Of a DNA stretch of 39,349 bases, positions 6,477-34,672 are shown piece by piece. The DNA is from an uncultured Pelagibacteraceae bacterium (lineage in GTDB: Bacteria; Pseudomonadota; Alphaproteobacteria; Pelagibacterales; Pelagibacteraceae). The translations under genes and the position numbers were made by a program. Under the pieces are notes generated by a model that was given only the letters and a program-made list of their open reading frames with translations, searched no databases and had not been told where the DNA came from. Every line of letters starts with the position of its first letter. Within the stretch, counting starts at the first letter, position 1. The stretch is from NCBI GenBank assembly GCA_902578525.1, contig CACHDJ010000009.1:1-39349 (forward strand), given 5' to 3'.

Positions 6477-6509
6477 AAAAAAAAAGCCCCCTTAAATAAG
6501 GGGGCTTTT
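6477..6509 (-). terminator. Rho-independent terminator of the outer-membrane protein gene
   Basis: Arms 6486-6493 and 6498-6505 (five C facing five G) pair perfectly, extended by A/T pairs from 6482-6485 with 6506-6509. On the minus strand a long U tract (6485 to 6477) follows. It lies about 30 bases past the stop of the beta-barrel gene and isolates it from the reductase/liv operon. Confidence 0.93.
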
Positions 6510-13298: not shown

Positions 13299-13331
13299 AA
13301 AAAAAAATACCCCCTAGCGTTTAGGGGGTAT
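13299..13331 (-). terminator. Hairpin attenuator between the binding-protein gene and livH
   Basis: A 10-bp perfect stem (arms 13307-13316 and 13322-13331, with five C opposite five G) and a five-base loop are followed on the minus strand by a U run (13307 to 13299). It looks like a full intrinsic terminator. As the remaining transporter genes lie beyond it with only a short gap and no clear promoter, it probably lets only part of transcription through, giving more binding protein than permease. Confidence 0.85.
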
Positions 13332-13345
13332 TTATAGATTTGTTA

Positions 13346-14668: not shown

Positions 14669-15286
14669 TTAATAATATTGTTGTGTAATAATAATTATTG
14701 AAGCAATTAAAACTAAAACACTCGCTGAGATTGTATTAATTGTTTTCGGGTTTGTTTTTATCCAACTAATTAATTTTTGAGCTAATAAAGCATAACCAAT
14801 CAAAGATAAAAAATCTAAAACAACATAAGTCGTAATTAAAATAAAGAATTGAACAACATAATTTGAATTAAAATCAATAAATTGTGGGAATATTAGCGGA
14901 AAAAACAACCAAGCCTTTGGGCTTGTTCCAGCAACTAAAAAACCATCTTTAAAAAAAGAAATAAAAGTTTTTGAGGTAATTATTTTTGAATTAATATCTT
15001 TGGGTGCAGATTTGTAAACGTCATAAGCTAAATAAAATAAGTAAAATACTCCAATCCATTTAAAAGTATTTAAAAAATTTGGATTGTCTGAAAAAAAGCT
15101 ACCTAAAACAAAAATTACCAAAGTTGCTTGAATAAAATTTGCTGTAATATCTCCTAATGCAGTCCAAAGACATTTTTGAACACCATAATTCATAGAATAT
15201 GAAACAATAACAATCCTAGGAGTGCCAGGTGTAATAAATAAAAAAATTATGATTTGTAAAAAAAGGATAAAATCTAGAGGGAGCAT
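14669..15286 (-). CDS. LysE/RhtB-family amino acid exporter
   Basis: A 205-residue membrane protein with about six helices. It starts with the family pattern 'FLFITPGTPRIVIVSYSMNY' (about residues 15-34, normally TPGP) and 'WTALGDITANFIQA', then 'AGTSPKAWLFFPLIFPQFI' (about 119-137), the second conserved block. The family exports basic amino acids, homoserine, threonine or related compounds. The Pro of TPGP is displaced by an inserted Thr (TPGTP). It is transcribed divergently from the DUF2805 gene, and a hairpin with eight U lies directly before its ATG, with no usable Shine-Dalgarno next to the start. The exported compound is not known. Confidence 0.87.
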   Translation of the reverse strand: MLPLDFILFLQIIIFLFITPGTPRIVIVSYSMNYGVQKCLWTALGDITANFIQATLVIFVLGSFFSDNPNFLNTFKWIGVFYLFYLAYDVYKSAPKDINSKIITSKTFISFFKDGFLVAGTSPKAWLFFPLIFPQFIDFNSNYVVQFFILITTYVVLDFLSLIGYALLAQKLISWIKTNPKTINTISASVLVLIASIIIITQQYY

Positions 15287-15287
15287 T

Positions 15288-15340
15288 AAAAAAAAGATAG
15301 TCCTTAAAAACCGGGAGCTAAAGATGGCTAAGAAGGACTA
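15288..15340 (-). promoter_or_regulatory. Candidate leader hairpin controlling the LysE-family gene
   Basis: TAGTCCTT (15298-15305) and AAGGACTA (15333-15340) pair perfectly over 8 bp around a 27-base loop rich in C and G for this genome. On the minus strand the stem is followed by two bases and then eight U (15295-15288), ending one base before the ATG at 15286. The descending arm contains AAGGA, which could serve as Shine-Dalgarno if freed. It resembles an attenuator or riboswitch expression platform; no known class is recognised. Confidence 0.45.
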
Positions 15341-15405
15341 CCTAAATTAATATACCAGATACAAAAAAAAATGCATTATTGATTTTTTTCAAATATAAGG
15401 AATTA

Positions 15406-31416: not shown

Positions 31417-31447
31417 TACAAGCCCTTTTATAAAAAAAGGGCTTGTA
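31417..31447 (-). terminator. Hairpin between the peptide-binding-protein gene and its permease
   Basis: A perfect 13-bp stem (arms 31417-31429 and 31435-31447, loop of five) lies ten bases after the stop of the binding protein. No good U tract follows on the minus strand, so partial termination or protection of the upstream mRNA 3' end is likelier than full termination. Either would raise binding protein over permease. Confidence 0.6.
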
Positions 31448-31456
31448 TAAATTAAT

Positions 31457-33007
31457 TTAGTTTACTTTAGAAAAACGGAATAATGGTTCATTATTCGGTC
31501 TTATAGGAACATCAATGTTTGATTTTGACGCCCAAGAAATTACTTGGTGATGTAAAGGTAAATAAGCAATATCATCCTTTACAATTTTCCAAGCTTTTGC
31601 AATAGCAGCGTTTCTTTTATCTAGATCAACCTCTCCTTCCATTACTCTTATTGCAGCATCTACATCTGCATTACTGAAGTTAACTTTATTCCAGCTAGCA
31701 TCAGTTTCATATAAATAATGAAATACATAGTGACTATCTAGAGTAGGAACACCCCAACCTAACATATAGAAATCACCTTGATTATCTTTAAGTTCTTTGA
31801 AGTGTTTACTTTTAGTTTGAGAAAATAAGTTTACATTAACACCTATTTTTCCTAACATTCCAACTACAGCTGTACAAATAGCTTCGTCATTCACGTATCT
31901 GTCATTTGGACATCTTAGTTCTACATCAAAACCATCTGGATATCCTGCATCTGCTAATAATTTTTTCGCAGCATTAACGTCGTAAGGTAATCTTTTATCA
32001 AGAGCCTTGGTGTAGCCTGTTACACCTGGAAAAGTTATAATTCCTGCTGGTTCACTTAGCCCTCTCATAACTTTTTTCTTGATAGCTTCAATATCAATTG
32101 CTTGGTAAAGAGCTTGCCTTACTTCTTTTTTCTTAAATGGATTGTCTCCTGTATTTCCAGATCTTAATTTATCTGCAGCTTGATCCATTCCAAGAAAGAT
32201 AGTACGCATCTGTGGAGTACTCTCCACTTTATGTCCTGTAGAAGCTTTTATTCTACCTAAATCTTGAACAGGGGCATCTGTAACTAGATCTATTTCGCCA
32301 GATAAAAGTGCAGCAACTCTAGTAGCTGCATTTTTTATTGGAAGTAATTGTATCTCAGTTATATTATGTTCAACATTTCCCCACCATTTACCATTCTTTT
32401 TGAAAACAGTTTTAGTATTTGGTTCTCTTAAAGTAATTTTAAATGGACCAGTCCCCATTGCATTAGTGGCAGAAAAAGTTTCTTGTCCTGCGTCCCAATT
32501 TTGTGGAGAAAGAGCAAAATTTTTAGCTGACCACTCTTTGGACATTATAAAAATATTTGATAATTGGTTCAAAAGAATTGGATTAGGTTTACTTGTTTTT
32601 ATTTGAACTGTGTATTTATCAATAGCCTTAACTCCTGAAATTGTACTTATATATTCTTTAAAATCTGAAGTTCTTTGCTTAGCTCTTAATATACTGAAAA
32701 CAACATCCTCTGACGTCATTGGTTGTCCGTTAGAGAATTTTACATCCTCTCTTAAAAAAAAGTACCAAGTATTTGGATCAACAGCTTTCCACTTTGTTGC
32801 TAATTGCGGTCCTATAGACATATCAAGACCTCTAGTCACTAAAGCTTCATAGATTTGTCTAGATACTTGAGTAGTTGGTCCTTCATTTTGTGCATGCGGA
32901 TCAAGTGTTAAACTATCTCCTTGCATTGACCATTTGATAGTTTTTGCTAATCCAGTATTTGGAGCAAAAATTATGAAAAAAGCCAATAAAATTTTAATAA
33001 ATTTCAT
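31457..33007 (-). CDS. Peptide-type ABC transporter substrate-binding protein (DppA-like)
   Basis: A 516-residue periplasmic protein of the SBP_bac_5 family. Residues 1-21 form the signal peptide ('KFIKILLAFFIIFAP', cut after GLA). 'IKWSMQGDSLTLDPHAQNEG' begins the mature part as in DppA/GsiB, then 'LATKWKAVDPNTWYFFLRED' and 'VKFSNGQPMTSEDVVFSILR' give the family signature, and 'ADAGYPDGFDVELRCPND' a later conserved block. It delivers its ligand to the permeases downstream. The Shine-Dalgarno is a full AGGAGG (33017-33012), strong for this genome, but is covered by an inverted repeat. The ligand is not determinable from sequence. Confidence 0.93.
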   Translation of the reverse strand: MKFIKILLAFFIIFAPNTGLAKTIKWSMQGDSLTLDPHAQNEGPTTQVSRQIYEALVTRGLDMSIGPQLATKWKAVDPNTWYFFLREDVKFSNGQPMTSEDVVFSILRAKQRTSDFKEYISTISGVKAIDKYTVQIKTSKPNPILLNQLSNIFIMSKEWSAKNFALSPQNWDAGQETFSATNAMGTGPFKITLREPNTKTVFKKNGKWWGNVEHNITEIQLLPIKNAATRVAALLSGEIDLVTDAPVQDLGRIKASTGHKVESTPQMRTIFLGMDQAADKLRSGNTGDNPFKKKEVRQALYQAIDIEAIKKKVMRGLSEPAGIITFPGVTGYTKALDKRLPYDVNAAKKLLADAGYPDGFDVELRCPNDRYVNDEAICTAVVGMLGKIGVNVNLFSQTKSKHFKELKDNQGDFYMLGWGVPTLDSHYVFHYLYETDASWNKVNFSNADVDAAIRVMEGEVDLDKRNAAIAKAWKIVKDDIAYLPLHHQVISWASKSNIDVPIRPNNEPLFRFSKVN

Positions 33008-33046
33008 TTCCCCTCCTAATTATTAATAAGAAAGTATAGGGGAAAT
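33006..33046 (-). promoter_or_regulatory. Inverted repeat that can sequester the start site of the peptide-binding protein gene
   Basis: ATTTCCCCT (33006-33014) and AGGGGAAAT (33038-33046) are perfect 9-bp inverted arms with a 23-base spacer. In the transcript the 3' arm takes up part of the AGGAGG Shine-Dalgarno and the first two bases of the ATG, so folding would block initiation. A TATACT at 33038-33033 could be a -10 for a transcript lacking the 5' arm, in which case the repeat would act only on read-through RNA from ilvC, or as a DNA operator. Confidence 0.55.

Positions 33047-33082: not shown

Positions 33083-34672
<1,590 letters not shown>

Follow-up and report, generated by a model that had tools for sequence, protein, structure and literature searches.

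The junction between ilvC and a solute-binding protein gene

The window analysed here, a 39,349-bp stretch of DNA from an uncultured Pelagibacteraceae bacterium (contig CACHDJ010000009.1 of assembly GCA_902578525.1), carries on its minus strand a gene for an extracellular solute-binding protein (SBP) of the Opp/Dpp/Nik class, and the relatives of this locus all belong to the Pelagibacteraceae (SAR11). Upstream of the SBP gene lie ilvC, ilvH and ilvB-type genes; downstream of it come two genes for permeases and one for a fused double ATPase. The initial annotation called the product a peptide-binding protein. Its class is supported by the Pfam match given below, but the substrate assignment is not, as the protein falls under all NCBIfam equivalog cut-offs; 'peptide-binding' thus has to be read as the name of a class. 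The features of the junction are as follows.

31457..33007, minus strand: gene for the SBP_bac_5 extracellular solute-binding protein (Pfam PF00496, E 1.4e-82)
33006..33014, minus strand: 3' arm of the repeat, AGGGGAAAT, which takes in the end of the Shine-Dalgarno sequence (SD) and the first two bases, AT, of the start codon
33010..33017, minus strand: SD of the SBP gene, AGGAGGGG, conserved whether or not an upstream arm matches it
33024..33028, minus strand: predicted start of transcription, placed about 7 nt beyond the -10 box; the resulting leader of ~18 nt would lack the 5' arm
33033..33038, minus strand: TATACT, the putative -10 box of the SBP gene, based on the conservation of TATA[AC]TTT in leaders
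33038..33046, minus strand: 5' arm of the repeat (mRNA sense), ATTTCCCCT, within a conserved promoter-like block, TTATTTCAC[C/T]TATACTTT
33083..34105, minus strand: ilvC (ketol-acid reductoisomerase), on the same strand as the SBP gene and 75 bp upstream of it

The inverted repeat reported in the initial annotation is present as described. On the forward strand, ATTTCCCCT at 33006-33014 and AGGGGAAAT at 33038-33046 are perfect 9-mers separated by a spacer of 23 nt, and the 3' arm covers part of the SD and the start codon. Read along the minus strand, the ilvC stop codon is followed by the 5' arm, TATACT (33038-33033), an AT-rich spacer and AGGAGGGGAAATG. TATACT comes directly after the 5' arm and has one base in common with it. 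Most of AGGAGGGGAA lies inside the 3' arm, which covers AGGGG in AGGAGGGG as well as the AT that opens the start codon (ATG, 33007-33005).

Rarity and folding energy of the repeat

The repeat is moderately rare. We counted perfect inverted repeats no shorter than 9 bp, with four or more GC pairs and loops of up to 30 nt, using dinucleotide-shuffled windows as the control; 0.71 nine-mer seeds are expected per shuffled window, and the real window has five such places. The repeat at the start codon is the shortest of the five; the remaining four form longer hairpins, and some of these look like terminators. With base rates taken from SAR11 loci rather than from whole genomes, a 9-bp match with four GC pairs at a start codon occurred, among 174 SD-bearing ORF starts, only at the window locus and its orthologues. 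Overlap with a start codon is rarer than a repeat of this strength as such.

The 51-nt hairpin has an unexceptional predicted energy of -13.0 kcal/mol (z -1.7), which was equalled by 11 of 200 shuffles. Over a 106-nt stretch the window does fold exceptionally well (z -3.7), with an outer helix that draws on the coding sequence; this outer helix is not kept in the two closest relatives, whose arms are the same as those of the window (z only -1.3 and -2.1). As the stem lies downstream of ilvC on the same strand, it might be taken for a terminator or attenuator of that gene, a reading that we find scarcely credible given its 23-nt loop, the absence of a T-run after the 3' arm and its absence from the matches of the terminator scan.

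Conservation of the two arms

We compared 95 distinct leaders of the SBP gene, of which 36 are linked to ilvC and 59 come from genomes where the gene lies elsewhere. Perfect 9-bp arms were found in three of the 36 linked leaders, namely those of the window, L064 (98.6% SBP identity) and L065 (97%). AGGGGAA is present near the start in 30 of the 36 linked and 44 of the 59 unlinked leaders, and TTTCCCCT is restricted to the same three leaders, being found in none of the unlinked orthologues. On this distribution, the 3' arm is evidently the strong SD of the gene and travels with it.

The transporter gene itself has evidently changed neighbours among SAR11 genomes. In many of them (the L068-L128 series) the SBP gene lies ~60 bp behind a gene other than ilvC, presumably a class I glutamine-amidotransferase-like gene, and the leaders of this series carry a different conserved upstream block, CTTTAGTTTC...AAGCTAGATTTTT.

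The 5' arm falls in a block of its own. TTCAC[C/T]TATACTTT occurs in 32 of the 36 linked leaders, the usual form of the block outside the window being TTATTTCAC[C/T]TATACTTT, and TATA[AC]TTT, which is unpaired in the hairpin, occurs in all 36. In a 25-row alignment TATACTTT is among the invariant or nearly invariant columns, though it is unpaired, and several arm columns vary. The TTCCCCT of the window differs from the TTCACCT of its relatives by a single A-to-C difference, by which the block has become a perfect complement of the SD. Since the CCCC arms are common to three genomes, they are not a sequencing error. In L085 the upstream neighbour is divergent and 145 bp away, so that a read-through leader of this type does not exist, and TTATTTGACCTATACTTT is still found in the same position; this ties the block to the SBP gene rather than to read-through from ilvC. 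Because the block is conserved and also stands behind a divergent gene, we read TATACT as the -10 box of the SBP gene. The side remark in the initial annotation that TATACT in the spacer might yield a short transcript fares better than its proposal of a translational switch and is most likely the correct part: TATACT is the best-conserved stretch of the leader, and a transcript from the conserved TATA[AC]TTT would lack the 5' arm.

The arrangement resembles an ordinary housekeeping-type promoter with a short leader and a strong SD before a substrate-binding gene of an ABC transporter: the two have in common a -10-like TATACT in a constant position, some 25 nt ahead of the SD-ATG, which is kept where the upstream gene is divergent. 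It differs in that no -35 box is recognisable 16-18 nt upstream of TATACT in the aligned leaders.

The block might alternatively be one half of a DNA operator, with the repeat bound by a dimeric regulator. Its conservation across ilvC-linked leaders would suit such a role, but the two halves lie 32 bp apart from centre to centre, the right half is the SD, which is conserved even where the left half is missing, and in most relatives the left block has no symmetry with the right half. Nor is the block a genome-wide motif, as it is not enriched elsewhere in these genomes. We accordingly rate an operator as very improbable.

A regulon motif of the form TTTCAC[C/T]TATACTTT was considered and rejected, its one-mismatch matches in 59 genomes being no commoner than those of a reversed control pattern. 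Outside the SBP leaders, CACCTATACTTT..GAGG has seven matches, one in an unrelated place and six in one and the same coding region, which presumably encodes a consistent, TatC-like protein.

Pairing and covariation

The covariation that the initial annotation had proposed to look for between the arms is absent: in none of 263 cells were both sides of a pair altered, so that no change was compensatory, and RNAalifold returned 0 consensus pairs for the leaders. Duplex energies are -14.6 kcal/mol in the window and L064 and about -10 kcal/mol in the sister group. Pairing falls to between -3.6 and -5.9 kcal/mol in L007, L043, L048, L058, L063 and L132, all of which retain TATA[AC]TTT, and in L007, L043, L058 and L132 (about -4 kcal/mol) the loss is not repaired on the other side.

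In the sister group, the register is shifted, but the block again pairs with the start region (ATTATTTC/GAAATAAT), with fold z values down to -3.6; those of unlinked leaders are near 0. Pairing is therefore not limited to three genomes, although in the sister group, too, compensatory changes are absent. In the sister-group register 90.9% of the cells pair, against 54-66% in slid controls, but this high share arises because both arms are conserved, and arms shuffled among sequences score as well as the real pairing. A comparison of own with swapped arms gave P 0.013 over all rows; without the CCCC rows the energies were -8.1 versus -8.0 kcal/mol (P 0.24), and the signal is thus that of the window's clade itself. 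Between the -10 block and the SD, leaders of the sister group (L006, L042, L045, L053 and similar ones) also have an inner hairpin made up of A and T only, CTTTTTTAAA-TAAA-TTTAAAAAAG, which sits inside the helix that the block forms with the start region.

The main reading of the initial annotation, a translational switch in which a riboswitch, a thermometer or a protein-binding leader acts on the hairpin, fares poorly against these results. The 3' arm does contain the SD and the start codon, much as in the stems of known RNA thermometers and translational riboswitches, and the window leader folds better than shuffles over 106 nt. The conserved fold, aptamer and Rfam match that mark those systems are absent here, however. 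The leader is too short for an aptamer and reaches the gathering score of no Rfam family, and consensus fold and covariation are lacking from a set in which only three near-identical leaders, those of the window and two close relatives, have perfect arms. We judge a switch to be about as improbable as an operator. A search against a phage collection gave no match.

Read-through from ilvC

Another possibility is that RNA reading through from ilvC folds so as to hide the SD, whereas the short transcript of the gene itself, which lacks the 5' arm, is translated. The geometry is suitable, with a -10 box in the loop and the 5' arm upstream of the start. Across the linked set, with 30 nt of coding sequence included, predicted SD exposure is 0.19 in long and 0.79 in short transcripts; the linked leaders also rank low among shuffled upstream sequences (mean rank 0.12, with 19 of 36 at or below 5%), and the orthologues not behind ilvC have no such bias (mean rank 0.43).

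The signal comes, however, mainly from sister-group leaders, which are closely related and not independent, so that it counts as a lead rather than a finding. In the window's clade (L002, L064 and L065) the ranks are 0.25-0.7, with no effect beyond that of a shuffled upstream sequence. The read-through transcript of the window has a predicted SD exposure of 0.23, against 0.21-0.28 with shuffled upstream sequences, which suggests that nearly every upstream sequence would conceal this G-rich SD. With 45 nt of coding sequence, the short transcript of the window is predicted to be no more open than the long one (0.12 against 0.23); with 30 nt it is slightly more open (0.30). Compensatory changes are absent, and several relatives lose the pairing unrepaired. 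The suggestion that read-through from ilvC is silenced is not supported for the window's clade, where predicted exposure is no lower than with shuffled upstream sequences.

Taking both sides together, we consider this fold-back mechanism unlikely, and a weak read-through-silencing role, mainly in the sister group, possible on the folding predictions. Its general form, in which SAR11 cells with the SBP gene behind ilvC would hide the SD in the read-through leader, freely translate the mRNA from the promoter in the loop and so insulate the transporter from the branched-chain amino acid operon, appears slightly less likely again.

Fold-back inhibition of read-through transposase mRNA is established for IS10 and IS50. 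The likeness to the present case is that pairing of upstream RNA with the SD would require a transcript begun upstream, and that an internal promoter would lie between the arms. Here, in contrast, covariation is absent, perfect arms occur in one small lineage, no mobile element is involved and the mechanism is only predicted.

Other hairpins and structured RNAs in the window

A perfect 13-bp hairpin, TACAAGCCCTTTT/AAAAGGGCTTGTA, lies at 31417-31447 on the minus strand, between the SBP stop codon and the start of the first permease gene. It recurs in all 74 of 74 distinct SAR11 loci with 11-18 perfect bp, TTACAAGCCCTTT.../...AAAGGGCTTGTAA, and a variable loop. By this comparison it is evidently far better conserved than the repeat at the start codon, for which it serves as a yardstick in the same loci. 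Intercistronic hairpins in transporter operons raise the level of the binding protein over that of the permease, and the present one is probably a stabilising or partly terminating hairpin of this type.

The only RNA family to reach its gathering score in the whole window is rhtB (RF01814), at 15278-15360 on the minus strand, with 80.9 bits over the whole model. Further strong C-rich inverted repeats at 536-567, 6482-6509 and 13305-13333 are probably terminators.

A probable SBP promoter and a Shine-Dalgarno sequence that match

The repeat is probably a lineage-specific match of two separately conserved elements, in front of a gene that is most likely transcribed from its own promoter. The 3' arm would be a strong purine-rich SD and the 5' arm the pyrimidine-rich part of a promoter-like block, with TATACT as the -10 box of the SBP gene. 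The A-to-C change in the closest lineage of the window, together with its A/T flanks, would then have made the arms perfect. The main transcription start is placed near 33026, downstream of the 5' arm, and if the mRNA begins there, read-through RNA from ilvC is the only RNA in which the hairpin could form. The sequence, its pattern of conservation and the lack of covariation are observed; promoter activity and start site are inferred. The repeat is thus real, and its cause appears to be mostly ordinary: in one small SAR11 lineage a promoter block and an SD, each of them conserved, have become perfectly complementary.

We regard this as a useful negative result. At about 30% GC, a G-rich SD pairs with almost any pyrimidine-rich promoter sequence upstream, and comparison with relatives is therefore required before an inverted repeat that hides an SD can be regarded as a switch. 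If the insulation of the transporter from ilvC read-through were nevertheless true, it would show how the tightly packed, regulator-poor genomes of SAR11 keep adjacent operons apart.
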